Assembly (NCBI RefSeq): GCF_012933465.1
Contig: NZ_JABBND010000007.1
Location: 124,001 to 188,000 of the forward strand
Direction of reading: 5' to 3'
DNA: 64,000 nucleotides
Origin: Actinomycetospora sp. TBRC 11914
Lineage (GTDB): Bacteria; Actinomycetota; Actinomycetes; Mycobacteriales; Pseudonocardiaceae
Every line of letters starts with the position of its first letter. Within the stretch, counting starts at the first letter, position 1. The notes beneath the pieces are model-generated. The model was given only the letters and a program-made list of their open reading frames with translations. It was not told where the DNA came from and searched no databases. Made by a program: the position numbers and the translations under genes. Positions 4,978 to 63,684 of the stretch are shown in pieces.

Positions 4978-4984
4978 GATCCCC

Positions 4985-4990
4985 ACGCTA
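4985..4990 (-). promoter_or_regulatory. TAGCGT -10 element of the LLM oxidoreductase gene
   Basis: Read on the minus strand, TAGCGT ends 7 bases before the GTG at 4977 with no ribosome binding site, suggesting a leaderless transcript. It decides the start choice for this gene. Confidence 0.45.
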
Positions 4991-5027
4991 GCCGCCGTCC
5001 TCCGGGATCGGCCGCCGTCCTCCGGGG

Positions 5028-6284: not shown

Positions 6285-6331
6285 GGCGGCGGCCTCCTCC
6301 GTGCGGGCTGGTCGGGTGGTGTCGGCGCGGG

Positions 6332-7942
6332 TCACGGCGGGAGCAGGGTGGCGCGGCGCTCGTCGGGGTCGTGGCCGGTGAGGACGACGGTCGCGTCCTG
6401 GGTGGGGCTCGGGTGGGTGGGGAAGCCGGCGGGTTCCGGCTCGAGCGCCGCGGGCTGGTCGACGGTCCGCCAGCGCGGCGGGAACGGCGCCGCCCGCTCG
6501 ATCTGCCCCTTGTAGAAGTCTAGCCACGTGGAGTGGTCGACGGTGACCGCGCCGACCAGGCGGCCGCGCCGCCCGTAGGCCGCGACGAACCGGCGGTCGG
6601 GCACCGACCCCTGGGTGACGACGACCTCGTCGGCGATGTTCGGCACACCGACCGACTTGATCTCGTGGCCGAACTGGGTGGACCAGAAGACCGGCACCTC
6701 CAGGTGGGGCCAGCGGTGGGCCTGGTCGCTGAGCATGTTGTGCGCGGCCACCTCGGCCTGCGCGACCGCGTTGCCCCAGTGCTCGAGCGCCAGGAACTGG
6801 TAGCCGAACGCCGGCTGGGGCGCGCGGGCGACGTCGCCGGCGACGAAGACGTCGTCGGTGACCAGGCCGTTCGCGTCGAGGGCGCGGCAGCCGGCGTCGC
6901 ACGCGACCCCCCACGGGCCCGACGCGAGCCCGGAGCCCTCGAGCCACTCGACGTTGCGGATGCCGCCGAGCGCGGCCACCGCCACGTCGACGTCCAGGGT
7001 GCTGCCGTCGGACAGCCGGGCCCGCCGCAGCCGGCCGCCCTCGCCCTCGAGCGCGGAGACCCGGACCCCGCAGCGCAGGTCGACCCCGGCGTCGCGCTGC
7101 ACCTCGGCCGCGATCGCCCCGATCGTCCCGCCCAGGGCGGCCACCAGGGGCGCCGCCCCGGCCTCGGCGACGGTCACCGGGATGTCGAGGGTCCGGCACA
7201 CCGAGGCGACCTCCGACCCGGTGAACCCGGCGCCGATCACGAGGACCCGGCGCGGTCGCCCGGCCAGCAGCCGCGCAAGCCCGTCGGCGTCCTCCCGGGT
7301 GCGGAGGACGAGCACCCCCTCGAGCGCCGCCTCGTCGGGGTCCGGCCACGGCCGGGCCCGGACGCCGGTCGCGATCAGCAGCCGGTCGAACCCGACCGAG
7401 GAGCCGTCGGCGAGCCGCACCTGCCGCGCAGCCAGGTCCAGGCCGGTGGCCGCGACGCCCAGCCGCCAGTCGGCCTCGATGGCCCGCCGGCGGGGCAGCC
7501 CGGTGTGCCCCGCGTCGACCCGGCCCTCCTGGACCTGCTTGCTCAGCGGTGGCCGGTCGTAGGGGTCGTGGGCCTCGTCCCCGATCACGGTCAGCGAGCC
7601 GCGGAACCCCTTGTACCGCAGGGCGCCGGCGGCGCGGGCCCCCGCCAGCGAGGCACCGACGACCACGATCCGCCCCGTCCGCAGGAAGTCACCGGTCGAG
7701 CCGCCCCGGCGCGGGGCGGGCACCGCGGCGCGGTCACCGTTCCGGGCCGGTCCGCGGTCGAGGACGATGGCCTGGACGGGACACGCCGCGGCCGCACGCA
7801 GCACCCGCTCCCGCCGCTCGTCGGCGGGCTCGGGGTCGTAGAGCAGCGCCTCGCCCTGCCCCTGCATGGTGAAGTCGTCCGGGGCCAGGAAGGCGCACTG
7901 CGCGTACCCCTGGCACCGGGTCAGGTCCACGACGAGCCTCAT
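6332..7942 (-). CDS. Ferredoxin-ferredoxin reductase fusion protein
   Basis: 536 residues. Residues 1 to about 65 are a [3Fe-4S] ferredoxin with the pattern C-x2-Y-x2-C...C-P (CQGYAQC, then AAACPVQAIVL); the tyrosine replaces the second cysteine of a [4Fe-4S] cluster, as in actinobacterial P450 ferredoxins. A short linker leads to an FAD/NAD(P)H reductase of the rubredoxin/putidaredoxin reductase type: GRIVVVGASLAGARAAGALR, LLIATGVRARPWPDP, RVLVIGAGFTGSEVASV and DVFVAGDVARAPQP. The ATG at 7942 has GGAGAG 7 bases upstream. It should pass electrons from NAD(P)H to the P450 encoded next in the operon. Confidence 0.93.
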   Translation of the reverse strand: MRLVVDLTRCQGYAQCAFLAPDDFTMQGQGEALLYDPEPADERRERVLRAAAACPVQAIVLDRGPARNGDRAAVPAPRRGGSTGDFLRTGRIVVVGASLAGARAAGALRYKGFRGSLTVIGDEAHDPYDRPPLSKQVQEGRVDAGHTGLPRRRAIEADWRLGVAATGLDLAARQVRLADGSSVGFDRLLIATGVRARPWPDPDEAALEGVLVLRTREDADGLARLLAGRPRRVLVIGAGFTGSEVASVCRTLDIPVTVAEAGAAPLVAALGGTIGAIAAEVQRDAGVDLRCGVRVSALEGEGGRLRRARLSDGSTLDVDVAVAALGGIRNVEWLEGSGLASGPWGVACDAGCRALDANGLVTDDVFVAGDVARAPQPAFGYQFLALEHWGNAVAQAEVAAHNMLSDQAHRWPHLEVPVFWSTQFGHEIKSVGVPNIADEVVVTQGSVPDRRFVAAYGRRGRLVGAVTVDHSTWLDFYKGQIERAAPFPPRWRTVDQPAALEPEPAGFPTHPSPTQDATVVLTGHDPDERRATLLPP

Positions 7943-8070
7943 GGGGGCGCTCTCCCGTCGCGCGGAGGTGTGTGCCGGACGCACCCACTCTCCGGACGCC
8001 CCGGCGCCGCGGCATCACCCGACGAGGATGAGGCGCACCGTGGACCAGCGCGGATGTCAGGTGCCAGGCG

Positions 8071-8655
8071 TCAGGAGTCCGCCCCCGCCGGCCCCAGCTT
8101 GCGGACCGCCTCGTCCTTGCCCGCCACGGACGTGCGCAGGTCGGCCTGGAAGTCGGCCATCCGCGCGGCGAGGCCCGCGTCGGCCGCGGCGAGGATGCGC
8201 ACGGCGAGCAGGCCCCCGTTGCGGGCGCCCCCGATCGACACCGTCGCCACCGGCACCCCGGCCGGCATCTGCACGATCGAGAGGAGGGAGTCCATCCCGT
8301 CGAGGTGCTTGAGCGGCACCGGCACGCCGATCACCGGGAGCACGGTCGCCGCGGCGACCATGCCGGGCAGGTGCGCCGCGCCGCCCGCCCCGGCGACGAC
8401 GACGCGCAGGCCGCGCTCGGCCGCCGTCTCGGACCACTCGAGCATCGCCCGCGGGGTCCGGTGCGCCGAGAGGACGCGCGCCTCCCACGGCACGCCGAAC
8501 TCGTCGAGCGCCGTCGCGGCGGCCTGCATGGTCGGCCAGTCGGAGTCGCTGCCCATGACGATGCCGACGAGCGGGGGCAGGCGGGCGCCCGCCACCTGGT
8601 CGGCCTCGCCCCGGGTCGACACGGCCTGCCCGGGCACCAGCTCGCTGGAGGACAT
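8071..8655 (-). CDS. purE: 5-(carboxyamino)imidazole ribonucleotide mutase PurE
   Basis: Converts N5-CAIR to CAIR in purine biosynthesis. The 194-residue protein carries [28 protein letters not shown] and [18 protein letters not shown], the PurE active-site segments, plus [20 protein letters not shown]. The ATG overlaps the purK stop by one base (TGATG), so the two are translationally coupled. The N-terminus is about 25 residues longer than minimal PurE. Confidence 0.97.
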
Positions 8656-9857
8656 CAGTGCGCGCTCCATCCGTCGGTCCAGACACCCGTCGCGAGGTGG
8701 TCGGCGGCCAGGCGCGCCCGCCGCCGGACGTCGTCCATGTCGTCGCCCGTGACGTTCACGTGCCCGATCTTCCGGCCGGGCCGCTCACCCTTGCCGTAGA
8801 GGTGCACCCGCGCCTCGGGGAAGCGCGCGAGGGTGTGGTGCAGCCGCTCGTCCGGCCCGGTCGACGGCATCGTCGTCTCCCCGGCCGCCCAGCCGCCGAG
8901 CACGTTGGCCATCGCGCAGGCCGGGCGCAGCGTCGCCGTGGAACCCAGCGGATAGTCGAGCACCGCGCGGAGGTGCTGCTCGAACTGCCCGGTCACGGCA
9001 CCGTCCATCGACCAGTGGGCGGAGTTGTGCGGGCGCATCGCGAGCTCGTTGACCACGACACGCCCGTCCGGCGTCTCGAAGAGCTCGACCGCGAGCAGCC
9101 CGACGACGCCGAGCGCCGCGGCGATGCGGAGCGCGAGCTCCTCGGCGGCCTCGGCGGCGTCGTCGGAGAGCCCGGGTGCGGGCGCGAGGACCTCGGTGTT
9201 GATCCCGTCGACCTGCACCGTCTCCACCGTCGGGTAGACCGCCGCCTGCCCGAACGGCGAGCGCGCGAGCACCACCGCCAGCTCCCGGCGCAGCGCCACC
9301 TTCTGCTCGACCATCAGCGGCGTCCCGGCGTCGAGCAGTTCGGGGACGGTCCGCGCGGTGTCGTCGGCGGAGCCGAGCATCCAGACCCCGCGGCCGTCGT
9401 ACCCGCCCCGGACGGCCTTCAGCACGACGGGCCAGCCGTGCTCGGCCGCGAACGCCTCGACGTCGGCGGGCGAGGACACCGGAGCGAACGGCGGGACGGG
9501 CTCGCCGAGCTCGGCGAGGCGCCGACGCATCACCAGCTTGTCCTGGGCGTGGCGCAACGCCTCCGGGCCGGGGTGGACGGTGACCCCCTCGGCGACCAGC
9601 TTCTCGAGCAGCTCGCCCGGCACGTGCTCGTGGTCGAAGGTCAGGGCCTCGGCACCCGCGGCGGCGCGGCGCAGCGCGTCGAGGTCGCGGTGGTCGCCGA
9701 GGACGACGTCGGGGGCCACCAGCGCGGCCGGGTCGTCGGCGGAGACCGCGAGCACGCGCAGCGACTGGCCGAGGGCGATCGCCGCCTGATGGGTCATGCG
9801 GGCGAGCTGACCCCCGCCGACCATCGCGACCACGGGCAGGCCGGTGCGCTCCTCCAC
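8655..9857 (-). CDS. purK: 5-(carboxyamino)imidazole ribonucleotide synthase PurK
   Basis: ATP-grasp enzyme that makes N5-CAIR from AIR, bicarbonate and ATP, providing the PurE substrate. 400 residues with the N-terminal [17 protein letters not shown], the ATP-grasp core [19 protein letters not shown], and the metal and phosphate region [19 protein letters not shown]. The GTG start lies 9 bases after a TAGGGT element and lacks a ribosome binding site. First gene of the purK-purE operon. Confidence 0.97.
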
Positions 9858-52954: not shown

Positions 52955-53299
52955 ATGAGCCGGCCCGGCGCCCTGGACTGGGAACGGGTGCGCGCCCGGT
53001 ACGCCGACCGGCCGTCCCTCGCCTCGCTGGCCGGGTCCTCCCGGGTGCAGGTGCTGGAGGTCGACGACGAGCGCATCTGCCTGGGCCAGCGGCTCTGGCG
53101 CGACTGCGTGTCGCGCGACGACCTCGACGCGGCGCTGGTGCTGCTCCGGGAGGGCCGGCTCGCGGGCGGGCCGATGGCCGTCGCCGAGGGGCTGCGGGCG
53201 TACTACGCCTCCGGACCGCGGGTCGAGACCGGGTGCACCCGGGGACCGAACCTCGTCGCCGTGGTGCTCGCGGACCTCGGCTACCTCACGCCTCCCTGA
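52955..53299 (+). CDS. Small conserved protein, family X copy 1
   Basis: 114 residues; a member of a small family that occurs three times in this cluster. Shared pattern: W-x2-(V/I/L)-x3-(Y/F) near the N-terminus, an LP/SL-x2-(A/P)G stretch, the strand RVQVLEVDDERICLGQRLWR, the helix DDLDAALVLLREGRLAGGPM, then LRAYY and a C-terminal VLADLGYL. This copy has an inserted segment (SGPRVETGCTRGPN) before the terminal helix. No signal peptide or membrane segment. Function unknown. Its 3' end overlaps the convergent amiC-like gene by 14 bases. Confidence 0.75.
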   Translation: MSRPGALDWERVRARYADRPSLASLAGSSRVQVLEVDDERICLGQRLWRDCVSRDDLDAALVLLREGRLAGGPMAVAEGLRAYYASGPRVETGCTRGPNLVAVVLADLGYLTPP

Positions 53300-54410
53300 T
53301 CCCGGTCGACACCCGGGCGACGACCTCGAAGTGCACGTCGTGGGCACGGGCGATGTAGACGTCCTGCACGACGTGGGCCCCGCGCAGCACGGATTCCCCG
53401 CGCGCGCCCCCGAAGCGCACCTGCTCGCTCGCGGCGAGCACGTCCTCGCGGCGGATCGAGCCGGCGTCGCGGACCAGCTGGGCGTAGAGGTTCATCCCCT
53501 CGTAGCAGGACTCCCCGAGGCTCGAGGGCGCGGGCGCCGCCATCCCGAACCGGCTCGCGAAGCGGCCCGCGAACTCCAGCGCGTCGACCGTCGCCAGGTC
53601 CTCGAAGTAGCCGGCGGCCGAGTACAGCGACCGCGTCGCGGCCTCGCCGGACGCGAGCAGCATCGTCTCGTCCATGAGCGTGGACAGCCGGGTCTGGTGG
53701 AAGTCGAGCCCGGCTCCGGCGAACGCCCGGTTGAAGTGCACCGCGTCCTCACCGACCAGCAGCAGCAGGACGCCGTCGGCGTTGCTGCGCGCGAGGGTGC
53801 GCAGCACGGGGGTGAAGTCCCGGGTCCCGAGCGGGACGAAGACCTCGTCGACGATCGGGGTGCCCTGGGCGCGGGCCCACTGCGCCGCGGCGGCCGCCGA
53901 CGCGCGCGGCCAGACGTAGTCGTCCCCGACGACGGCCCACCGGCGGACGCCGAGCTCGGTGCGCATCCACTCCAGCGCCGGCCCGAGCTGGTTCGCCGGG
54001 GTCTCGCCGGTCAGGAGCACCCCCGGGGTGCGCTCGCCGCCCTCGTAGAGGGCCGTGTAGACGTAGGGGACCTGGGCGGCGACGCGCGGGGCGAGGCGCC
54101 GACGGACCGCCGAGATGTGCCAGCCCACCACCGCGTCGACCTCCGCGGTGCGCACCATCCGCTGGACGTCGCGGGCGACCGCACCCGGGTCGGCACCACC
54201 GTCGACGTGGTGGAGCTCGACGGGCCGCCCGAGCAGCCCGCCCGCGAGGTTGATCTCGGAGACCGCGAGGTCCGAGCACATCCGGCACGAGAGCCCGAAC
54301 ATCCCCGCCGGCCCCTGCCACGGCGTGACCAGGGCGACCCGGACCGCCTCCTCCCGCGCCCCCGTCCCCTCGGGGGGCGCGAGCACGGCTCGGGCGTTCG
54401 GCACCGGCAT
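53286..54410 (-). CDS. AmiC-like amide-binding periplasmic-type protein
   Basis: 374 residues with the type I periplasmic-binding fold of AmiC/UrtA/FmdD proteins (Peripla_BP_5/6). Features are VRVALVTPWQGPAGMFGLSC, SEINLAGGLLGRPVELHHVD, VDAVVGWHISAVRRRLAPRV, VPYVYTALYEGGERTPGVLL, ADGVLLLLVGEDAVHFNRAF and a C-terminal ESVLRGAHVVQDVYIARAHD. There is no signal peptide, which fits a cytoplasmic sensor such as Pseudomonas AmiC or Rhodococcus NhhC rather than a transporter subunit. Start options are ATG 54410 or GTG 54404; the latter sits 8 bases after GGAGG. Divergent from the MarR gene upstream of amiE. Confidence 0.85.
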   Translation of the reverse strand: MPVPNARAVLAPPEGTGAREEAVRVALVTPWQGPAGMFGLSCRMCSDLAVSEINLAGGLLGRPVELHHVDGGADPGAVARDVQRMVRTAEVDAVVGWHISAVRRRLAPRVAAQVPYVYTALYEGGERTPGVLLTGETPANQLGPALEWMRTELGVRRWAVVGDDYVWPRASAAAAAQWARAQGTPIVDEVFVPLGTRDFTPVLRTLARSNADGVLLLLVGEDAVHFNRAFAGAGLDFHQTRLSTLMDETMLLASGEAATRSLYSAAGYFEDLATVDALEFAGRFASRFGMAAPAPSSLGESCYEGMNLYAQLVRDAGSIRREDVLAASEQVRFGGARGESVLRGAHVVQDVYIARAHDVHFEVVARVSTGIREA

Positions 54411-54511
54411 CACCTCCGGGGCCTCGCCCCTCTGTCGCGAGTATGGCCACACCGGCGGGCGCGTGGGGAGCTTGTACTGTTTCGAGCAGGCAAACGTCGG
54501 GGAGGGCGGTC

Positions 54512-54994
54512 ATGGACGGGCCACGCCGTGCTCCGGACGTCCGCGTGGTCGACCTGCTCGACCTGGCGGACCGCACCGTCGGGTCCTGCCTCGCGCGCGC
54601 CTCCGCCACCTCGGGCATCACCCGCGAGCAGTGGCGCACCCTGATGCTGCTCGACCAGGGCGTCGGCGACGAGGCGCGGGACGCGCCCGGGCACGCCATG
54701 GGCGAGATCGCGGTCCGGGCCGCGGTCCCGGCGCCGACGGCCACCCGGCTGGTCGACAGGCTGGTCGCCGAGGGGCTCGCCTACCGCCGCAGCGATGACT
54801 GGGACCGGCGCCGCGTGCACGTCCACATCTCCTCGGAGGGCCACGCCCTCGTGGCCCGGATCGCCGCCGAGCTCGACGCGGCCTTCGGGGCCGAGCTCGC
54901 CGACCTCGACCCCGCCGACCGGACGCGGCTCCTCGGGCTGCTCGCTCGCCTCGACGGGGCCTCGGCCGACCGGGCGGAGCCGTCGCGCCGCTGA
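54512..54994 (+). CDS. MarR family transcriptional regulator
   Basis: 160 residues with a winged helix: ITREQWRTLMLLDQG, HAMGEIAVRAAVPAPTATRL VDRLVAEGL and the wing AYRRSDDWDRRRVHVHISSE. ATG 54512 has GGGGAGGG 7 bases upstream. The MarR plus AmiC-like pair recalls NhhD and NhhC, which control the amide-inducible high-molecular-mass nitrile hydratase of Rhodococcus rhodochrous J1, so control of amiE is likely. That assignment is inference. Confidence 0.9.
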   Translation: MDGPRRAPDVRVVDLLDLADRTVGSCLARASATSGITREQWRTLMLLDQGVGDEARDAPGHAMGEIAVRAAVPAPTATRLVDRLVAEGLAYRRSDDWDRRRVHVHISSEGHALVARIAAELDAAFGAELADLDPADRTRLLGLLARLDGASADRAEPSRR

Positions 54995-55011
54995 GCGTCG
55001 TGTGACATCGC

Positions 55012-55059
55012 GCGCAATCGTGTTTCGCGTCCATTACTTCTGATCCGGAAATATTGCGC
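55012..55059. promoter_or_regulatory. Inverted repeat in the amiE upstream region
   Basis: Perfect inverted heptamer GCGCAAT (55012-55018) and ATTGCGC (55053-55059), 34 bases apart, in an unusually AT-rich patch for this window. The right half overlaps the candidate -35 box. Candidate operator for the neighbouring MarR protein. Confidence 0.45.
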
Positions 55060-55081
55060 CGCCGCCGGAGGCTCGTACGGT
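55054..55081 (+). promoter_or_regulatory. Candidate promoter of amiE
   Basis: TTGCGC (55054-55059) and TACGGT (55076-55081) with 16 bases between, placing transcription start about 30-35 bases before the amiE ATG. Confidence 0.4.
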
Positions 55082-55121
55082 CGGTCCACGACAGCACGGA
55101 GCACGAGGGACGGTGGGACCG

Positions 55122-56147
55122 ATGCGGCACGGTGACATCAGCAGCAGCCACGACGGCGTGGGCGTCGCGGTCGTCAACTACACGATGCCGCGGCTCCACG
55201 ACCAGGCCGGCATCCGGGAGAACTGCGAGAAGATCGCCGAGATGGTGGTCGGCATCAAGCAGGGGTTCCCCGGCATGGACCTCATCGTCTTCCCCGAGTA
55301 CTCGACCCACGGGATCATGTACGACCGCGAGGAGATGTTCGCGAACGCCTCCCAGATCCCGGGGTTCGAGACCGAGATCTTCGGCGAGGCCTGCCGGCGG
55401 GCCGGGGTGTGGGGCGTGTTCTCCCTGACCGGCGAGCGCCACGAGGACCACCCCGACAAGAACCCCTACAACACGCTCGTCCTGATCGACGACCAGGGCG
55501 AGATCGTGAACAAGTACCGCAAGATCCTGCCGTGGGTCCCGATCGAGGGCTGGTACCCGGGCGAGCACACCACCGTCGTCGAGGGCCCCAAGGGCCTGAA
55601 GATCGCGCTGATCATCTGCGACGACGGTAACTACCCGGAGATCTGGCGCGACTGCTCGATGAAGGGCGCCGAGCTCGTCGTGCGGCCGCAGGGCTACATG
55701 TACCCGGCCAAGGAACAGCAGATCATGATGGCGAAGTCGATGGCGTGGGCGAACAACGTCTACGTCGCGGTCGCCAACGCGACCGGTTTCGACGGCGTCT
55801 ACTCCTACTTCGGGCACTCCTCGGTCGTCGGCTTCGACGGCCGGACCCTCGGCGAGTGCGGCACCGAGGAGATGGGCGTCCAGTACGCCGAGCTCTCGCT
55901 GTCGCTGATCCGCGACGCCCGGAAGAACTGGCAGTCCCAGAACCACCTCTTCAAGCTGCTCCACCGCGGCTACACCGGCGTGGTGCAGTCCGGCGACGGT
56001 GACAAGGGCGTCGCCGAGTGCCCCTTCGACTTCTACAAGACCTGGGTCACCGACCCGGCACTCGCCCAGAAGCAGGTCGAGGAGATGACCCGCGAGTTCG
56101 TCGGCACCCCCGAGGCGCCGATCGAGGGCATCCCGAACGGGGCCTGA
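55122..56147 (+). CDS. amiE: Aliphatic amidase
   Basis: 341 residues. Nitrilase-superfamily enzyme hydrolysing short aliphatic amides to acid and ammonia, also capable of acyl transfer. Near-colinear with Pseudomonas AmiE, starting MRHGDISSS in both, which fixes the ATG at 55122. The triad keeps identical numbering: Glu59 (VFPEYS), Lys134 (KYRKILPW) and Cys166 ([15 protein letters not shown]). Also [19 protein letters not shown] and [14 protein letters not shown]. First gene of the amide/tubulin-like cluster; followed by a hairpin and then the first tubulin-like gene. Confidence 0.97.
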
Positions 56148-56165
56148 CCACGCGCCGTGGGCACG

Positions 56166-56195
56166 GCGGACCGGGCGAGCGCTCCCCCGGTCCGC
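56166..56195 (+). terminator. Hairpin between amiE and the first tubulin-like gene
   Basis: Perfect 10-bp stem GCGGACCGGG/CCCGGTCCGC with a 10-base loop, no T-run. It could partly terminate amiE transcription and lower expression of downstream genes. Confidence 0.5.
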
Positions 56196-56265
56196 GGGTG
56201 GCGCGCGTCCCCGGCCGCCCCCGACACGCATCCGACGATCCGGACGATCCGCAGGAGGAACGGCC

Positions 56266-57810
56266 ATGGCCGCCGAGCACGACCACGACCACAGCCACGA
56301 CCACGGCGACGCCACGATGGCGCGCATCGAGGCGCTGCGCACCGAGGGCGTCCACCGGGCCGGGGACCACGAGGGCCCCTTCTCGCTGCACGTGCTCGGG
56401 CTCGGGAAGACCGGCGCGGACCTGATCACCTCGATCCTGACCCACCAGCCCGAGGGCTTCCTCTCGGAGCCGGGCACCCGGTTCTCCGCGCTCGCGGTCG
56501 ACATCGGCGACGAGGACCTGGCCCAGGTCCGCGAGGCGGCCGGGGCGGTGCCCGCCGAGAAGTCCTTCGTGAAGACGGTGGCGATGCCCGTGCCCAGCCA
56601 CGCGGATCTGTCGTACGCGCTCAACCGCTACCGCGAGTTCCTCAAGATGGAGTACCCGCGCTACTACTGGAACCCGAACTACGAGCCGTGGCTCCCGGCC
56701 GACGTCGCCATCGCGCCCTCGGACGGCCACCAGTCGCGGGCCGTCGCCAAGGCGATCTACGGCGCCGAGTACTACCAGGGCGGCGAGATCACCACCGCGC
56801 TCGACGCCTTCGCCGAGTCCGTGATGGCCAGCGAGGCCACCCCGCTGGTGGTGGTGGCGTTCAGCATGGCCGGCGGCGTCGGCAGCGGCATCGTCGTCGA
56901 GATCGCCCGGCACCTGTCGTCGATCAAGCTCGGGCGGCGCCCCTGGGTGGTCGGGCTCGGGATCCTGCCCAACGGCGCCGACCCGGCCGAGTACTCGGAC
57001 GGCTCGTTCTTCCCGGTGGTCAACGAGCTCGACTGCATGATCGACACCGAGAAGAACAAGGGGGTCATGGCGGTCTGGGGGGACCTGTACAAGAACCCGT
57101 TCACCGGCGGCTTCTTCCTGGTCGACCAGAACGACGTCCAGGCGATGACCGGCGACCTCGCGGCCACCCACGAGTACGTGGACACCGGGGTCGGGTCCTT
57201 CCTCGCCCGCGACGCGAGCGTGCACCTCTACGAGACGCTCAAGGCGCTGAACTGGCTGGCCGTCCCCGCGGACGCGTGGCACCCGGCGATCCGGGGCGAG
57301 CAGGGCGAGCGCTGGATCAACGTGCTCTCGGTGCGCCGGCTCGCCGACATCGGCTCGCTGGGCTCCTCCGGCCTGGTCAAGGGCTTCACGACGGAGTACG
57401 TCGAGGCCCGCGCCTTCGCCGGGGACCTCGACGACGCCACGGCGGCCTCGATCGCGGAGGCGGTGTCGGCGGTGGCGACCGCCGAGGTCGACCCGGTGGT
57501 GCTGGCGCTGCCCGGTTCCGACGACCTCGTCAGCGTGGTGCTCCCGCGGGCGAGCAAGCTCGACCTCGCCGCGTTCGTCCCGGCCCGCGACTACTACGAC
57601 ACCCTCGAGTGGGACGACAAGCTGCTCATCCACTCCTGGCTGCTCGACCTCGGCGTCATGCTCTGCGAACCGTCGATCCGCTTCGACGGCATGGGCGGCG
57701 AGTGCATCTGGGGCTGCGCCTGCTGGGTGGTCGTCCCGCACGCCGCCATCCGGGGCGAGATCAGCTCACCGATCCAGGTCGAGGCCGCCGACGCCCTCAC
57801 CGCGAGCTGA
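56266..57810 (+). CDS. Tubulin/FtsZ-fold GTPase-like protein 1, His-rich N-terminus
   Basis: 514 residues. N-terminus with alternating histidines 5, 7, 9, 11 and 13 (HDHDHSHDH), typical of nickel or cobalt handling. The nucleotide domain has a glycine T1-type loop (HVLGLGKTGAD, Gly45/47/50) and the tubulin signature-like T4 loop AGGVGSG at 202-208 after a hydrophobic strand, then an ELDCMIDTEKN and NPFTGGFFLVD region like tubulin helix H6 and the next strand. The C-terminus has Cys480-x3-Cys484-x-Cys486 (ECIWGCACW). The block KMEYPRYYWNPNYEPWLP is shared with the second copy. It is not FtsZ; no membrane segment. The ATG has GGAGGA 7 bases upstream. Function unknown. Confidence 0.8.
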   Translation: MAAEHDHDHSHDHGDATMARIEALRTEGVHRAGDHEGPFSLHVLGLGKTGADLITSILTHQPEGFLSEPGTRFSALAVDIGDEDLAQVREAAGAVPAEKSFVKTVAMPVPSHADLSYALNRYREFLKMEYPRYYWNPNYEPWLPADVAIAPSDGHQSRAVAKAIYGAEYYQGGEITTALDAFAESVMASEATPLVVVAFSMAGGVGSGIVVEIARHLSSIKLGRRPWVVGLGILPNGADPAEYSDGSFFPVVNELDCMIDTEKNKGVMAVWGDLYKNPFTGGFFLVDQNDVQAMTGDLAATHEYVDTGVGSFLARDASVHLYETLKALNWLAVPADAWHPAIRGEQGERWINVLSVRRLADIGSLGSSGLVKGFTTEYVEARAFAGDLDDATAASIAEAVSAVATAEVDPVVLALPGSDDLVSVVLPRASKLDLAAFVPARDYYDTLEWDDKLLIHSWLLDLGVMLCEPSIRFDGMGGECIWGCACWVVVPHAAIRGEISSPIQVEAADALTAS

Positions 57811-57821
57811 GGAGGACCGCG

Positions 57822-58121
57822 GTGGCCATCGCCTGGTCCGAGATCGTGGACCGATACAAGGACGGCGCGCAGCTGCCGTCGATGCCGGGCGCGCGCACGC
57901 TGCAGGTCACCGGGGCCGACGACGAGTACATCTACGTCACGCACCGGCTGTGGTCGGACAAGCTGACCCGGTCCTACCTCGAGAAGGCCATGGCGCTGCT
58001 CGACGAGGGCCGCATGACCCGCGACTACGCGTCGGTCATCGACCACTACCGCACCTTCATCGCCGACGAGCGCCCGACGACGGCCGCCACCGTCCTCAAG
58101 GACCTCGGCTACGTCGACTGA
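57822..58121 (+). CDS. Small conserved protein, family X copy 2
   Basis: 99 residues. N-terminal AWSEIVDRYKDGAQLPSMPG, strand RTLQVTGADDEYIYVTHRLW, helix RSYLEKAMALLDEGRMTRDY, then IDHYRTF and the terminal VLKDLGYVD. Same order of elements as copies at 52955 and 62095. GTG 57822 has GAGGAGG 6 bases upstream and lies 11 bases after the first tubulin-like stop, so the two are cotranscribed and probably work together. No known domain recognised. Confidence 0.82.
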   Translation: MAIAWSEIVDRYKDGAQLPSMPGARTLQVTGADDEYIYVTHRLWSDKLTRSYLEKAMALLDEGRMTRDYASVIDHYRTFIADERPTTAATVLKDLGYVD

Positions 58122-58160
58122 GGGCGATCCCGCCCCCGAGGCACCGATCCGCACGCCCCG

Positions 58161-58184
58161 GCGCCCCGCGCCACCCGGGGGCGC
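58161..58184 (+). terminator. GC-rich hairpin before the second tubulin-like gene
   Basis: GCGCCCC (58161-58167) pairs with GGGGCGC (58178-58184) around a 10-base loop, in the 96-base gap between the small family X gene and the second tubulin-like gene. Confidence 0.4.
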
Positions 58185-58217
58185 GATGCCGCGCGCCCGC
58201 AACAGGAAGGTTCCACC

Positions 58218-59873
58218 ATGGGAATGTCGCTCTACCACTCCGCGACCGGCAGCCAGTCCCCCCACTGCATCCACGCGCTCGGCATCGGCAAGACCGGCGC
58301 CTACATGGTCGAGGCGCTGCTGCGCACGGGCGAGATCGAGGACATGCTCGACGACCCGCGCGCCCGCTTCACCGGGCTGGCCGTGGACATCGGCGAGCAG
58401 GACATGCACGAGCTCAAGGAGTACGCCGGGGGGTTCACCCAGCGGCTCGAGGAACGGGAGATCCCGACCGACCGCCACCAGGTGCGCACGGTGGCCCTGG
58501 AGACGCCCAGCTCCGAGGAGCTGCGGACCAGCCTCAACCGCTGGCGCGAGTACCTGAAGATGGAGTACCCGCGCTACTACTGGAACCCGAACTACGAGCC
58601 GTGGCTGCCGGCGGACATGGAGATGCCGAAGCCGGGCGAGAGCTGCCCGCGGGCGATCGCCAAGGCGATCTACGGGCACTACTACTACGGCGGGGACAAG
58701 ACCCTGGAGAAGGAGCTCGACCTCTTCGTCGAGTCGATCAACAAGACCAAGCTGCCCTCGATGGTGCTCGTCTTCTTCTCCCTGGCCGGCGGGACCGGGT
58801 CGGGGATGGTCGTCGACATGGTCCGGCACCTGTCGAACGTCAAGCTCGGCCGCCGAATCCCGGTCATCGGCATCGGGGTCCTCCCGTTCTCCGGCGACGA
58901 GGAGCACGCCGGCGGCACGGCCGCGCTCTACCCCGTGATCAACGAGATCGACTGCATGCTCGACGACGAGAAGAACCAGGGCGTCATGGCGGTCTGGGGC
59001 GACCTGTACAAGAACCCCTTCACCGGCGGCTTCCTCGCGCTGCCCCAGGAGCACTCCTGGCAGCGGCTGTCGCAGTACACCAAGACCGGGGTCCCGACGA
59101 TCCGCGACGGCCTCCGCAAGGGCGTCACCCGCAAGTTCGTCGACGACTCCTTCACCCGCTTCGTGGTGCAGGACTACGGCCGCCTGCTGTTCAAGATGCT
59201 GCGACCGGCCGGCTTCACCGGCGCCCCGCACGAGCGCAACATCTCCGGCGACCGCGCCTGGACGATCTACGACGTCGCGAAGTACACCCACCCCGGCGTC
59301 GAGGTGCTGCCCGGCGAGCCGCGGGGGAAGTGGCGCGAGGTGGTCGGCAAGTGGATCGGTTACATCCCGAAGTGGTCGGGCCTCAAGGAGGGCTTCAAGA
59401 CCGACTACATCGAGGTCAACACCGTCGGCCCGCGCGAGATGTGGAACGACACGCTCCAGAAGAAGCTCGAGTCGGTGCTCGGGGAGTACCTGCTCGACGG
59501 CGACGACGGCACGCTCGTCACCACCAACGGCGAGTTCTTCGACGAGCTGACCTGCTACTCGAACATCGTCATCCCCGGTGTGGCCAAGACGGACCTGACC
59601 GCGTTCTACGCGGCCCGGGACGCCTACGACCAGATCGAGGACTGGGACACGAAGCTGATGATGCATTCCTGGCTGCTCGACCTCGGGGTGATCCTCTCCG
59701 AGCAGTCGATCCGCTTCGACGGCATGGCCGGCGAGTGCATCTGGGGCTGCGCGTGCTGGGTGGTCGTGCCGCACGCCGCCATCCGCGGCGACGCCCCCGG
59801 CTCGGCCGACATCACCGAGGTGCAGGGGGCGCACATCGCGCCCATGGTCCAGACGGTGGTCCCGACCCCGTGA
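58218..59873 (+). CDS. Tubulin/FtsZ-fold GTPase-like protein 2
   Basis: 551 residues, paralog of the preceding tubulin-like protein but without the His-rich start. T1-type loop HALGIGKTGAY (Gly22/24/27); T4 loop AGGTGSG at 190-196 in VFFSLAGGTGSGMVVDMVRH, closer to the tubulin GGGTGSG consensus than copy 1; guanine-side segment INEIDCMLDDEKNQGVMAVW, then GDLYKNPFTGGF. The C-terminal Cys507-x3-Cys511-x-Cys513 motif (ECIWGCACW) and VVVPHAAIRG are conserved. ATG 58218 has AGGAAGG 8 bases upstream. Possible heteropolymer partner of copy 1; this is inference. Confidence 0.82.
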   Translation: MGMSLYHSATGSQSPHCIHALGIGKTGAYMVEALLRTGEIEDMLDDPRARFTGLAVDIGEQDMHELKEYAGGFTQRLEEREIPTDRHQVRTVALETPSSEELRTSLNRWREYLKMEYPRYYWNPNYEPWLPADMEMPKPGESCPRAIAKAIYGHYYYGGDKTLEKELDLFVESINKTKLPSMVLVFFSLAGGTGSGMVVDMVRHLSNVKLGRRIPVIGIGVLPFSGDEEHAGGTAALYPVINEIDCMLDDEKNQGVMAVWGDLYKNPFTGGFLALPQEHSWQRLSQYTKTGVPTIRDGLRKGVTRKFVDDSFTRFVVQDYGRLLFKMLRPAGFTGAPHERNISGDRAWTIYDVAKYTHPGVEVLPGEPRGKWREVVGKWIGYIPKWSGLKEGFKTDYIEVNTVGPREMWNDTLQKKLESVLGEYLLDGDDGTLVTTNGEFFDELTCYSNIVIPGVAKTDLTAFYAARDAYDQIEDWDTKLMMHSWLLDLGVILSEQSIRFDGMAGECIWGCACWVVVPHAAIRGDAPGSADITEVQGAHIAPMVQTVVPTP

Positions 59874-59878
59874 CTGGT

Positions 59879-59900
59879 CATCTCATGGTGTGCTGAGATG
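59879..59900 (+). terminator. Small hairpin after the second tubulin-like gene
   Basis: Perfect 7-bp stem CATCTCA/TGAGATG with an 8-base loop, starting 6 bases after the stop codon. Confidence 0.4.
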
Positions 59901-59909
59901 TCGACGCAA

Positions 59910-59942
59910 CGGTGCCCCGAGGTCGACGACCCCGGGGCACCG
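59910..59942 (+). terminator. Strong hairpin upstream of the nickel/cobalt permease gene
   Basis: Perfect 10-bp stem CGGTGCCCCG/CGGGGCACCG with an inner GGTC/GACC stem in the loop. With the preceding small hairpin it makes a likely terminator or attenuator separating the GTPase genes from the metal transporter gene. Confidence 0.6.
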
Positions 59943-59983
59943 TGCGCCGTGGACGCGCCCGCCCCCGCCCGTGAGAGGACGCG

Positions 59984-61126
59984 ATGACCGCAATCGCCGC
60001 AGTACCCGGGACACGCTGGACCCGCAGCCAGCGCGTGCAGCTCTCGGTGATCGTCGCCGTGGTGTGCCTGCTGCACGTGGCCGGGTGGACGCTCTACCTC
60101 GCGCTGACCTCCGGGCCGTTGGGGGCGGGTGCGTTCGCCGGGGCCGGCGTGCTCGCCTACGTCCTGGGTGTCCGGCACGCCTTCGACGCCGACCACATCG
60201 CCGCGATCGACGACACCACCCGCCTGATGGTCCAGCGCGGGCGTCGCCCGGTCGGGGTCGGGTTCTTCTTCGCGATGGGCCACTCCTCGGTCGTGGTGAT
60301 CCTCGGACTGGTCGTCGCGCTGGCCGCGGGGCTCGCGAGCTCGAGCGGCATCGACACCTTCCGCGAGGTCGGCGGAGCGGTGTCCACCGTGGTCGCCATG
60401 GTGTTCCTGGGCCTCGTCGCGATCCTCAACGCGATGGTGCTCGTCGGGATCGTCGGGTCCTGGCGGGCGCTGCGCCGCGGCCGGCTCGACGAGGCCGAGC
60501 TCGAGCGCCAGCTGCTCAACCGGGGGCTGGTCAACCGCATCCTCGGCGGGCGCGCCCGCGCCCTCATCCGGCACTCGTGGCACATGTACCCGCTCGGACT
60601 GCTGTTCGGGCTCGGCCTGGAGACCGCCTCCGAGGTCACCCTGCTGACCCTGTCGGCGTCGACGGCCTCCACCGCCGGCGGGACCGGCGGCGGAGCGGCG
60701 CTGCTGGCCGCGCTCACGCTGCCGCTGCTGTTCGCCGCGGGGATGAGCGCGTTCGACACCGCCGACGGGCTGCTGATGTCGATCGCCTACTCCTGGTCGA
60801 ACCGCAGCCCCGCGCGGCGGCTGTTCTACAACATCGCGACGACCGCGGCGACGGTCACGGTGGCCGGGTTCATCGCCGCGGTCTACCTCGCCGGGGTCCT
60901 CGCCGACGACCTCGGGCTGAGCGCCCTCGCCGGCTTCGCCGGGCTCGCCGACGACTTCGAGCTGCTCGGCTACCTGATCGTCGGCTTCTTCGTGCTCGTC
61001 TGGGGTGGCGCCGCCCTGCTCTGGCGCCTCGGCGGCTTCGAACGACGTCACGAGGGCGCGGCCCTCGTGACCGCCGTGGGAGCGCCGGAGCAGGTTCCGA
61101 CCACCACCGAGGAGACACCGCCGTGA
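59984..61126 (+). CDS. NiCoT family nickel/cobalt permease
   Basis: 380-residue secondary metal transporter with eight predicted helices. The family signature in helix 2 is intact: GVRHAFDADHIAAIDDTTR (about residues 58-77, R-H-A-x-D-A-D-H-I). Other NiCoT motifs: FFFAMGHSSVVVILG, LFGLGLETASEVTLL and AAGMSAFDTADGLLMSIAYS. It imports Ni2+ and/or Co2+. The similar NhlF serves a cobalt nitrile hydratase in Rhodococcus, but no nitrile hydratase is encoded here. ATG has GAGAGGA upstream. Its stop overlaps the peroxiredoxin GTG. Confidence 0.94.
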   Translation: MTAIAAVPGTRWTRSQRVQLSVIVAVVCLLHVAGWTLYLALTSGPLGAGAFAGAGVLAYVLGVRHAFDADHIAAIDDTTRLMVQRGRRPVGVGFFFAMGHSSVVVILGLVVALAAGLASSSGIDTFREVGGAVSTVVAMVFLGLVAILNAMVLVGIVGSWRALRRGRLDEAELERQLLNRGLVNRILGGRARALIRHSWHMYPLGLLFGLGLETASEVTLLTLSASTASTAGGTGGGAALLAALTLPLLFAAGMSAFDTADGLLMSIAYSWSNRSPARRLFYNIATTAATVTVAGFIAAVYLAGVLADDLGLSALAGFAGLADDFELLGYLIVGFFVLVWGGAALLWRLGGFERRHEGAALVTAVGAPEQVPTTTEETPP

Positions 61127-61602
61127 TCGCCGTGGGAGCACAGGTGCCGGACGTGGCGCTCAAGGCCGTCACGCCGTCGGGCACCGAGGACGTGCGGACC
61201 GGTCAGCTGCTGAGCACCGGGAAGGTCGTGCTGTTCGGGGTGCCGGGAGCCTTCACCCCGGTCTGCAGCGACTTCCACCTCCCGGGGTTCGTCCTGCGGA
61301 CCGACGACATCAAGGCCAAGGGCGTCGACACCATCGCGTGCGTCTCGGTGAACGACGCCTTCGTCATGGCGGCCTGGGCGAGGACCGAGGACGCCGACGG
61401 CCTGGTGATGCTCGCCGACGACGCCGCCCGCTTCACCGCCGCGATGGGGCTCGACACCGACGCGTCGAGCTTCGGCCTCGGGACCCGCTCGCGGCGCTAT
61501 GCCGCGATCATCTCCGACGGCGTGATCACCTCGCTCGAGGTGGAGCGGGAGTTCGTCGACCACGAGGTGTCCACCGCCGAGCACGTGCTCGCCGCGCTCT
61601 AG
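61123..61602 (+). CDS. Peroxiredoxin (PRX5-like)
   Basis: 159 residues of the peroxiredoxin-5/AhpE-like redoxin family. Peroxidatic Cys48 lies in GVPGAFTPVCSDFH, with Cys73 in TIACVSVNDAFVMAAWART as a second cysteine. LGTRSRRYAAIISDGVI provides the conserved Arg. It reduces peroxides with thiol donors in the cytoplasm. GTG overlaps the permease stop (GTGA), so the two are coupled; the pairing suggests protection of a metal-dependent or oxygen-sensitive process. Confidence 0.93.
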   Translation: MIAVGAQVPDVALKAVTPSGTEDVRTGQLLSTGKVVLFGVPGAFTPVCSDFHLPGFVLRTDDIKAKGVDTIACVSVNDAFVMAAWARTEDADGLVMLADDAARFTAAMGLDTDASSFGLGTRSRRYAAIISDGVITSLEVEREFVDHEVSTAEHVLAAL

Positions 61603-61611
61603 GGGCGCCCG

Positions 61612-62088
61612 GTGGACGCCGCGCTCCTCCCGGAGTACGCCCGGTGGCTCGACCGGCTGACCGCGACGTACGAGGCGATCGCCTACACCTGCCGGGTCCG
61701 CCTCGGTGACCGCGCGACCGCGGACGCCGTCGCCGTGCGGGTGGCGGCCGGGCTCGTCGCCCGTCCCGCGGTGTTCCGCCACTGGGGGCTCCCCTACTCG
61801 GGCCGCATCGCGCGGCTCGCCGAGGACGCCATCGCGGACGCGCGGGCAGGCCGTCTCGACCGGGGCGGGAGCTGGCCCGCCCTCCACCGGGCCCTGGCCG
61901 AGGTCCCGGTCGACATCCAGACCACGTTCGTCCTGACCTGCGTCGACGGCCTCCCCGACGAGGAGGTGGCGGCGCACTGCGGCTGTGACCCGGCGACGGC
62001 GGGGCGGCGGCGGACCGACGCGGTGGAGCACGTCCGCGCCGTCGCCGGCGAGCACGGCGCGGCGGGCACCCACCACGAGGAGAGGTGA
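61612..62088 (+). CDS. Small protein with sigma-70 region-4-like helix-turn-helix
   Basis: 158 residues. The C-terminal half, ALAEVPVDIQTTFVLTCVDG followed by PDEEVAAHCGCDPATAGRR and TDAVEHVRA, follows the pattern of ECF sigma region 4. The N-terminal half, YEAIAYTCRVRLGDRATADA, weakly recalls a worn region 2. It may be a degenerate sigma factor or a small DNA-binding regulator of the cluster. It begins 10 bases after the peroxiredoxin stop with a GTG lacking a strong ribosome site. Confidence 0.6.
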   Translation: MDAALLPEYARWLDRLTATYEAIAYTCRVRLGDRATADAVAVRVAAGLVARPAVFRHWGLPYSGRIARLAEDAIADARAGRLDRGGSWPALHRALAEVPVDIQTTFVLTCVDGLPDEEVAAHCGCDPATAGRRRTDAVEHVRAVAGEHGAAGTHHEER

Positions 62089-62094
62089 CGACCC

Positions 62095-62394
62095 GTGCCC
62101 CTGGACTGGGCGGGCCTGCAGCGCGAGTTCGGCGCCGGCGGCGAGATCCCGACGGTCGCCGGCGGCAAGACCCTGCGCATCACCGCCGTGGACGACCGGT
62201 ACGTCCACATCGCGCACTCGCTGTGGCGTGACCAGCTCGCCCGCGAGCACCTGGAGAAGGCGGTCGCGCTGATCGAGGCCGACGCGATGACGCGCCACGC
62301 CGGACTGTTCGCCGAGGAGTACCGCACGATGGTCGCCGACGTCCGCGCGACGTCCGTCGCCCACGTGCTCAAGCATCTCGGCGTCCTGGAATGA
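62095..62394 (+). CDS. Small conserved protein, family X copy 3
   Basis: 99 residues. LDWAGLQREFGAGGEIPTVA, then KTLRITAVDDRYVHIAHSLW, RDQLAREHLEKAVALIEADA, EEYRTMVADVRATSVAHVLK and HLGVLE. Aligns end to end with the copy at 57822 without gaps. GTG start with GAGAGG upstream; 6 bases after the sigma-like stop. Its stop overlaps the ATG of the following unknown gene (ATGA). Confidence 0.82.
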   Translation: MPLDWAGLQREFGAGGEIPTVAGGKTLRITAVDDRYVHIAHSLWRDQLAREHLEKAVALIEADAMTRHAGLFAEEYRTMVADVRATSVAHVLKHLGVLE

Positions 62395-62918
62395 GCGCGG
62401 CCGGGACCACCTACGAGCTCCACGGTGTGGTCGCCGCCCCGGACGTCCTCGAGCCGCTGTGCGACAGGTACCCGCACGCGCGCCCCGCGCTGCTCGACGG
62501 CGCCGAGCTCGCGCTGCTGCCGCTCTGCGAGCAGCTGCTCCACGACATCGACCTCGCCGGGGTCCCCATGGGCCCCGAGTGGGCGTTCGACCGCCTGTCC
62601 TCCGGCCTGGCCGCGGTGCTCACCGCGGCCTCCCGCCGCGGCACCGTCGTCTACCTGGAGGCGGACTACGCCGGCGGCCTCGGGCGGCAGTCCGCGGTGG
62701 CGTGGCTGGACTGCCACCTCGTGTACGGCCCGGAGGTCCTGCTCCCCGACGAGCCGTTCCCCGTGCCGACCCGCGACGCCACCGGCGGCGCCCCCGTCGT
62801 CGCGGCCCTGCGCTACCTCGGCGTCCAGGCGGTCGGAGCCCGGGACGAGTTCGTCGTGCTGGGCCTCGGACGCCACCGCAGCACCCGGGAGTGGTGCACC
62901 GCGGGGCTCCGGAGGTGA
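62391..62918 (+). CDS. Hypothetical protein of the amide/tubulin-like cluster
   Basis: 175 residues, not recognised. A mixed alpha/beta protein with no membrane or signal segment: LHGVVAAPDVLEPLCDRYPH, LALLPLCEQLLHDIDLAGVP, GTVVYLEADYAGGLGRQSAV and FVVLGLGRHRSTREWCTAGL. Translationally coupled to the third family X gene, so it probably works with it. Confidence 0.7.
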   Translation: MSAAGTTYELHGVVAAPDVLEPLCDRYPHARPALLDGAELALLPLCEQLLHDIDLAGVPMGPEWAFDRLSSGLAAVLTAASRRGTVVYLEADYAGGLGRQSAVAWLDCHLVYGPEVLLPDEPFPVPTRDATGGAPVVAALRYLGVQAVGARDEFVVLGLGRHRSTREWCTAGLRR

Positions 62919-62964: not shown

Positions 62965-63684
62965 GTGCTCGCCCGCGCGGTCCTCTTCTCCCTGATCCCC
63001 GTCCTCGCCGCCGGCGTCTCGGGGGTCGTGGCGGCGCTGCGCCCACCCGGGCGGCGGGTGACCAGCGGCATCCAGCACTTCGCCGCCGGCGTCGTGTTCG
63101 CCGCGGCCGCGATCGAGCTGCTGCCCGGGGTGCTGCGCCAGCAGCCGTGGGTGGCGATCGTCGGGTTCGCGGCCGGGATCGTGGTGATGTTCGCCTTCCG
63201 GGCGGTCTCCTCGTCGCTCGAACGGCGCCGGACCGCCGCCGGCCCGGCGCTGCCGGTCGGGCTGGCCGTCGCCACCGGCGTCGACTTCGCCGTCGACGGC
63301 CTCGTGCTCGGGGCGGGGTTCGCCGAGGCGCCGACCACCGGGGTGCTGCTCACGGTGGCCCTGGCCGTCGAGTACCTCTTCGTCGGGCTCTCGCTGTCGG
63401 CCTCCATGAGCCGCGGGGCGTCCCGCCGGCTGACCGCGGCGGCGCCGACCGCGCTCTCGCTGCTCACCGTCGCCGGGACCGCCGTCGGGGCCCTGTTGCT
63501 CGCCAACGCCTCGCCGGCCCTGCTCGGCGGGGTCCTCGCCTTCGGGGCGGTCGCGTTCATGTACCTCGCCACCGAGGAGCTGCTCGTCGAGGCGCACGAG
63601 CAGGGCGAGACCGCCCTCGGGTCGGTGGGCTTCTTCGTCGGCTTCCTGATCTACCTGCTGCTCGACGAGCTCATCGGTCGGTGA
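62965..63684 (+). CDS. ZIP family-like metal permease
   Basis: 239 residues, about eight membrane helices. ZIP-like features are the helix IQHFAAGVVFAAAAIELLPG, the helix-4 segment ATGVDFAVDGLVLGAGFAEA, ALAVEYLFVGLSLSASM and the metal-site-like TEELLVEAHEQGET. The usual HExxG of helix 5 is not clear, so metal choice is uncertain. It follows the amide/tubulin-like cluster and adds a second metal-related membrane protein to the area. Confidence 0.8.
   Translation: MLARAVLFSLIPVLAAGVSGVVAALRPPGRRVTSGIQHFAAGVVFAAAAIELLPGVLRQQPWVAIVGFAAGIVVMFAFRAVSSSLERRRTAAGPALPVGLAVATGVDFAVDGLVLGAGFAEAPTTGVLLTVALAVEYLFVGLSLSASMSRGASRRLTAAAPTALSLLTVAGTAVGALLLANASPALLGGVLAFGAVAFMYLATEELLVEAHEQGETALGSVGFFVGFLIYLLLDELIGR

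Follow-up and report, generated by a model that had tools for sequence, protein, structure and literature searches.

Tubulin-like proteins of an Actinomycetospora gene cluster as probable subunits of an acetonitrile hydratase-type cobalt enzyme

The window analysed here is a stretch of 64,000 nucleotides from Actinomycetospora sp. TBRC 11914 (assembly of 6.5 Mb in 63 contigs), and its positions 52955..62918 hold a gene cluster centred on two tubulin-like paralogs, TubA (514 aa, 56266..57810, + strand) and TubB (551 aa, 58218..59873, + strand), which are 47% identical and flank a protein of 99 aa, X2 (57822..58121, + strand). It is highly probable that this cluster encodes a cobalt nitrile hydratase of the acetonitrile hydratase (ANHase) type, built on subunits of the tubulin superfamily, together with the amidase acting downstream of it. 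The original prediction knew of no described system with this make-up and proposed that the tubulin-like proteins form a scaffold, a filament or a metal-delivery device. However, the core matches the alpha-AnhE-beta arrangement of the ANHase of Rhodococcus jostii RHA1 and is already known under that name, the window holding a variant with a cysteine claw on both subunits and three AnhE paralogs; given the match of the gene set to that of RHA1, the tubulin-like proteins most likely make up the enzyme itself.

Plasmid pRHL2 of RHA1, reached by a tblastn search of plasmids, carries in order a MarR gene (on the opposite strand) and genes for a substrate-binding protein, an aliphatic amidase, a 'tubulin-like' protein, a 99 aa hypothetical protein, a second hypothetical protein, a helix-turn-helix protein and a 'nickel transporter'. 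The TubB and X2 proteins of the window are 57% and 60% identical to their counterparts there. The papers on the RHA1 enzyme reportedly date from 2007 and 2010. According to the literature, RHA1 is the source of acetonitrile hydratase and uses acetonitrile, acrylonitrile, propionitrile and butyronitrile (PMC6941271), and ANHase is a cobalt enzyme with the gene order alpha-AnhE-beta (PMC3511329, PMC3680314), each enzyme holding one cobalt, two copper and one zinc (PMC3766881). The name Anh is also given to ordinary nitrile hydratases, for example in Streptomyces canus (PMC7329996, PMC13243292); the RHA1 enzyme is meant throughout. The order alpha-AnhE-beta is matched by TubA-X-TubB in the window and on pRHL2 alike, and the NHase_alpha model found no match on pRHL2 (nor in 14 control genomes, the window's own genome giving three). 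Because of this order, of the AnhE-like X protein and of the lack of NHase_alpha on pRHL2, TubA, X and TubB most likely correspond to AnhA, AnhE and AnhB, and the supposed GTPases would be hydratase subunits. Both loci also share a 99 aa gene between the subunits and linked genes for amiE, MarR, a sensor and a NiCoT permease. They differ in that sensor and MarR have swapped order, that RHA1 has a claw on TubA only and a single AnhE at the locus, and that the window has additional genes for a peroxiredoxin, a sigma-like protein and a protein of 175 aa.

X2 has two paralogs in the cluster, X1 (114 aa, 52955..53299, + strand, convergent with the sensor gene; 34.9% identity to X2) and X3 (99 aa, 62095..62394, + strand; 39% identity to X2). 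By sequence comparison the three are one family, related beyond chance (E 1e-18 for X1/X2, 1e-29 for X2/X3 and 1e-9 for X1/X3 when the three sequences are compared with one another), so that the three copies of a small protein (99-114 aa) recognised earlier are real. X2 has no Pfam match; the AnhE profile, of which X1 is itself part, finds X1 at E 1.6e-28. Since the order TubA-X-TubB and the gene set of pRHL2 match the organisation of ANHase, the cobalt chaperone AnhE is the most likely identity of family X. For AnhE, a mass of 11.1 kDa and a 'sole histidine' are reported, as is a lack of similarity to other nitrile hydratases. In RHA1, TubA (WP_011600030), X (WP_011600031) and TubB (WP_011600032) have masses of 55.8, 11.09 and 63.0 kDa, and X has one histidine, X2 of the window having two. 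AnhE is described as the cobalt metallochaperone of ANHase (PMC3511329, PMC3680314) and, in PMC3511329, as a metallochaperone rather than a swapping chaperone; contrary to this, PMC7329996 places ANHase among the self-subunit-swapping enzymes.

Relatives of the cluster were sought in one genome per species over 84,980 species, loci being fetched by the peptide patterns YYWNPNY and IWGCACW. The scan found 59 loci, which by title belong to Actinomycetota, Cyanobacteria, Bacillota and several classes of proteobacteria. The TubA-X-TubB core is found in four phyla, accompanied by amiE and genes for cobalt transport. TubA and TubB could both be read in 55 pairs (the window, three plasmids and 51 of the 59 loci), and X separates them in the window itself as well as in 53 of the 54 others; the exception, L049, has the order amiE-TubB-TubA-X-X. 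In relatives of the genus Actinomycetospora, TubA and TubB are 82-96% identical to those of the window.

Both subunits bear the claw GECIWGCACW near the C-terminus (from residue 478 in TubA and 505 in TubB) and, at a distance of over 340 residues, the motif YYWNPN (from residue 133 in TubA and 120 in TubB). The claw pattern CxxxCxC (C-[IL]-x-G-C-A-C) resembles the metal-holding CxxCSC claw of ordinary nitrile hydratases. Among the 55 pairs it is present in both subunits in 33, in TubB only in 11, in TubA only in 10 (RHA1 included) and in neither in one. That single pair, L071, has a TubB cut by the contig end, and at least one claw is found in 54 of 54 readable pairs. With the TubB of L071 set aside, the NPN of YYWNPN is present in all 92 subunits with a claw and in none of the 22 without. 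From this co-occurrence in sequence we infer that each subunit with a claw has one cobalt active site. The claw on TubA only in RHA1 fits the one cobalt per enzyme reported for ANHase (PMC3766881); because both subunits have a claw in the window's genus, the prediction there is of two cobalt sites for each TubA-TubB pair, against one in RHA1. A rule explaining additional AnhE copies by claws on both subunits was rejected, since a single X accompanies two claws in cyanobacterial and most proteobacterial loci (L054 has a second X) and since three X matches each are present in G597 and G616, genomes with one claw.

A tree was obtained by a quick search from alignment columns other than those of the claw and YYWNPN, with L071 excluded and support given by the Shimodaira-Hasegawa-like approximate likelihood ratio test (SH-aLRT); several of its branches are long. 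TubA splits once from TubB plus a third paralog (support 98). Claw status changes once in TubA, in an alpha/beta-proteobacterial clade, and twice in TubB, in a group of RHA1, BAA-870, Gordonia, Williamsia, Mycobacterium, Tetrasphaera and Pseudonocardia sulfidoxydans and in Paenibacillus together with a metagenome-assembled genome (MAG) of Alicyclobacillaceae. We read this as a claw-bearing ancestor that duplicated, followed by three silencings, a tree alone being unable to separate gain from loss. The third paralog, tubulin-like and claw-less, was noticed in the proteobacterial loci L050, L052, L053, L067, L068, L069, L072, L077 and L084, often near genes for a CbbQ-type AAA protein and a VWA protein that resemble a metal-insertion or activation pair. 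On the Shinella plasmid L084, positions 4711-9131 are a remnant with a short gene for the claw end of TubB, CbbQ, VWA and the third paralog; this record is not among the matches listed for the X search of plasmids. The TubB of L055, a MAG titled Deltaproteobacteria, was placed within the Pseudonocardiaceae branch, so its contig is probably mis-binned or recently transferred.

The fold of the two subunits was predicted by AlphaFold2 with alignments of 50 sequences, and the models were compared with the PDB by Foldseek, with 50 matches listed per model. TubA (predicted local distance difference test score, pLDDT, 90.2; predicted template modelling score, pTM, 0.91) matches best CetZ (3zid, E 7.6e-10) and TubB (pLDDT 88.1, pTM 0.92) FtsZ (1w5e, E 9.8e-10). 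All 50 listed matches of each model belong to the tubulin superfamily by their description, with probability 1.00, TM-scores of about 0.4-0.6 (target length) and identities of about 7-14%. Judging from these models, both subunits appear to have a tubulin-superfamily fold, in line with what had been proposed for both paralogs. The relation is weak in sequence: the Pfam family Tubulin_2 scores 29.8 bits with TubB (cut-off 27) and 23.7 with TubA, and sequence and profile searches of the PDB gave no close relative and weak matches to FtsZ, TubZ and an Asgard tubulin (best E 4e-4), besides one ribosomal match at chance level. The nucleotide loop reads AGGVGSG in TubA and AGGTGSG in TubB (GGTGSG from residue 191), close variants of GGGTG[ST]G, and GG[TSV]G[SG]G is retained in 54 of 59 TubB and 43 of 56 TubA proteins, so nucleotide binding is likely in many relatives. 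Five Pseudonocardia loci (L025, L027, L028, L029 and L056) have a TubA with a degenerate nucleotide loop yet an intact claw, and the T7 catalytic motif NxDxx[ED] is absent as a pattern from TubA and TubB of the window. The two proteins thus share with FtsZ, CetZ, TubZ, tubulin and Tubulin_2 the predicted fold and the glycine-rich nucleotide loop, and differ from them by the YYWNPN-bearing insertion after the third strand, the C-terminal claw, the lack of NxDxx[ED] and the location in an enzyme operon. TubA starts with a histidine-rich stretch (window 56266-56320), as do its RHA1 and BAA-870 homologs, for which metal binding or storage is possible.

Full-length profiles run over 390 genomes from the same family as the window bear on the claim that the genes belong together. 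TubB matches 24 of these genomes, with a TubA match adjoining in all 24; the X profile matches the same 24 and one of the 366 others, that one by a partial match of 33 residues; and AmiE (E 1e-120 or better) is found in 13 of the 24 against 63 of the 366 (Fisher p 9e-5), amiE and a Tub gene lying on one contig, about 7 kb or less apart, in 13 of 13 genomes. As TubA and X always, and amiE significantly, accompany TubB, the cluster is not a chance grouping, in agreement with the original prediction of a system. The loci of this survey comprise 22 with two claws, two with one claw and none without. Elsewhere the system is rare, with 2 matching genomes among 348 from the order and 3 among 396 from the phylum; in the genus 6 of 18 have it (own genome counted each time). 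A tblastn search found it in 15 plasmid records of PLSDB, including two Shinella records with a partial match only. This patchy occurrence and the carriage on plasmids suggest horizontal spread.

Neighbouring genes were counted in the 59 loci over stretches of up to 10 kb per side or to the contig end, with a threshold of 65% identity for amiE and with representatives of neighbour families named by Pfam; the counts take in related species and are hence not independent. A close amiE is present in 32 loci, and in 27 of the 45 loci of at least 13 kb. The search of the gene neighbourhood that the original prediction proposed bears out a tight link of X and a significant one of amiE to the tubulin-like pair; the expected link of NiCoT, in contrast, is seen in only 11 of the 59 loci, other cobalt import or CobW genes taking its place. 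At least one of NiCoT, CbiM, CbiN, CbtA, CbtB and CobW is found in 46 of the 59 loci and in 40 of the 45 longer ones, CobW/G3E GTPase genes alone in 27. Homologs of the peroxiredoxin occur in 16 of the loci, of the sigma-like protein in 26 and of the 175 aa protein in 16; X1, X3, the sigma-like and the 175 aa proteins occur chiefly in actinobacterial loci. ANTAR regulators of the AmiR-like kind are present in some proteobacterial relatives, in nine loci altogether. A close amiE as an absolute rule was rejected, 27 of the 59 loci being without one, some of which end before amiE could appear. In Pseudonocardia loci L024, L025, L027, L029 and L035, which have no close amiE, a diverged amiE-like gene stands directly upstream of TubA, and L056 has both. 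Four translations of it were inspected by eye (L024, L025, L035 and L056); because some are without the catalytic lysine or cysteine of AmiE, this gene may encode a pseudo-enzyme or a changed amidase.

Like the window, loci of ordinary cobalt nitrile hydratases (NhlBA/NhhBA with NhlE/NhhG) combine a three-cysteine claw with a dedicated maturation protein. A cobalt permease (NhlF) and an amidase lie near ordinary cobalt nitrile hydratase genes as well. The ordinary alpha subunit has about 200 aa and a CxxCSC claw, against about 500 aa, CxxxCAC and a predicted tubulin fold in the window, with no detectable homology. Homology was rejected, as TubA and TubB have no Pfam match to NHase_alpha and hhalign, comparing the TubB profile to one of this genome's ordinary alpha subunits, gave a probability of 0.1%; CxxCSC itself does not occur in either protein. 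Three ordinary alpha genes lie elsewhere in the genome (C6:135628-136179, C5:155534-156076 and C62:167507-168064; L078-L080), the one of L078 with a cobalt-type CTLCSC claw as read by eye, and a unique need for nitrile hydration in this genome was accordingly rejected. Activators of Fe-type nitrile hydratases are of the CobW/G3E class. Genes of this class are shared with the 27 relative loci named above and were not seen in the window's cluster. In ordinary nitrile hydratases the claw cysteines are oxidised (PMC7329996).

In the mechanism that we infer for the reaction, its substrate range, its cobalt binding and its regulation, a heteromer of TubA and TubB would hydrate nitriles (R-CN + water -> R-CONH2), and AmiE would split the amide (R-CONH2 + water -> R-COOH + NH3). 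Cobalt would enter via NiCoT, probably a cobalt importer by its sequence, and the AnhE-family protein X2, with its paralogs X1 and X3, would hand it to the subunits, where the three cysteines of the C-terminal claw C-[IL]-x-G-C-A-C would hold it and YYWNPN of the same subunit would complete a single active site. The AmiC-like protein, a probable sensor of amide or nitrile from its sequence, would together with MarR turn the genes on in response to either, the peroxiredoxin would possibly be a redox helper for the claw cysteines, and the sigma-like protein may also have a part.

Several observations weigh against this reading. No accession ties anhA and anhB to the RHA1 proteins WP_011600030 and WP_011600032, and candidates were sought on pRHL2, not on the chromosome. 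All known nitrile hydratase alpha subunits, ANHase being counted among these enzymes, are said to have C-x-L-C-S-C (PMC7329996), a form that the RHA1 genes matched here do not have, and the spacing CxxxCxC differs from the CxxCxC of ordinary nitrile hydratases. The genome already has its three ordinary alpha genes, and 27 of the 59 loci, among them 18 of the 45 longer ones, lack a close amiE. As for the claw pattern, the split between subunits is strict for the letters NPN alone, the claw-less TubB of L070 reading YYWNPD (most other claw-less subunits are much more diverged at this motif); that no pair has neither claw is partly built in, because the loci were fetched with YYWNPNY and IWGCACW; the profile of the 390-genome survey was itself built from motif-fetched loci; and just three independent claw changes are counted, on a tree that came from a quick search and has several long branches.

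The same data can be read in other ways. A GTP-driven polymer of the pair, serving as scaffold or filament to organise the amidase or metal delivery, would agree with the predicted tubulin folds and with a nucleotide loop retained in most relatives, but we consider it very improbable: the T7-like motif is absent from both window proteins, the five Pseudonocardia TubA proteins have lost the typical loop and kept the claw, and the corresponding genes of RHA1 agree with a hydratase that has been purified. A cobalt enzyme that naturally acts on hydrogen cyanide, isonitriles or some specialised nitrile is unlikely, though less so. Plain nitriles seem covered in this genome by the three ordinary alpha genes, the distribution reaches cyanobacteria and proteobacteria, and one MAG belongs to a set named SCN18, a name that we presume to point to thiocyanate reactors; against this, AmiE is an aliphatic amidase by an equivalog model, which suits acetonitrile or propionitrile, and RHA1 uses acetonitrile, acrylonitrile, propionitrile and butyronitrile (PMC6941271). 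Doubtful, but the most credible of the three, is the view that a single subunit is the enzyme and that the other, despite its claw here, is a structural or maturation partner, so that not both claws are used: one claw is enough in 21 of the 54 readable pairs, while 33 pairs, from four phyla, retain both claws and both YYWNPN motifs.

The remaining genes agree with the first description of the cluster, in which all the named ones were correctly placed. The sensor, an AmiC/UrtA-like ligand-binding protein (53286..54452, - strand; Peripla_BP_6 PF13458 E 3e-82), scores far under the cut-offs of urea-transporter models and has no obvious signal peptide by eye. It is followed by a MarR-family regulator (54512..54994, + strand; PF12802 E 6e-10; frame open from 54443, start chosen by eye) and by amiE (55122..56147, + strand; frame open from 55113, start set by eye), an aliphatic amidase by NCBIfam NF009802 (670.8 bits, cut-off 427), which bears out the amide chemistry first proposed. 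Metal import is likewise upheld by the NiCoT permease (59984..61126, + strand; PF03824 E 1e-68), which scores 329.9 bits with TIGR00802, slightly below the cut-off of 333.05. Downstream lie the peroxiredoxin (61123..61602, + strand; PF08534 Redoxin E 5e-30), the sigma-region-4-like small protein (61612..62088, + strand; PF08281 E 5e-5, 23.4 bits, slightly below the cut-off of 25.7), X3 and the 175 aa protein (62391..62918, + strand; no Pfam or NCBIfam match). The overlaps described earlier, GTGA at 61123-61126 (NiCoT/peroxiredoxin) and ATGA at 62391-62394 (X3/175 aa protein), are real; that they bind most of the genes together holds only in part, the other gaps from TubA onward being 6 to 110 bases. 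A ZIP-family metal transporter gene comes next downstream (62965-63684; PF02535, 39.5 bits, cut-off 35.1). Anti-phage defence or a phage origin was rejected: PADLOC found no defence match among five proteins tested (TubA, TubB, X2, the sigma-like and the 175 aa protein), and the sole PHROGs match was a weak regulator match of the sigma-like protein.

In the open-access literature of PubMed Central (PMC), no article joining nitrile hydratase with tubulin or FtsZ was found, as judged mostly by titles and abstracts; in PMC5052560 both matches to this search fall in the reference list. The tubulin fold of ANHase, a claw on such a fold and the alternating retention of the claw were likewise not found in this literature, which takes in neither subscription papers nor preprints. 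Database annotation already labels some of these proteins 'tubulin-like' and others 'hypothetical'.

We regard it as rather likely that a branch of the tubulin superfamily left its cytoskeletal job and became a cobalt metalloenzyme, in which claw chemistry arose a second time, and that duplication was followed by lineage-specific silencing of either site; both sites would survive in the window's genus, possibly with separate AnhE paralogs, and the nucleotide pocket may be structural or regulatory. If this is true, ANHase would join the tubulin superfamily as an enzyme that uses a cytoskeletal fold, and cysteine-claw nitrile hydration would have had a second origin. It would supply exact targets, namely the three cysteines, YYWNPN and one or two cobalt per pair, would explain proteins now annotated as 'tubulin-like' or 'hypothetical', and would offer new enzymes for amide production.

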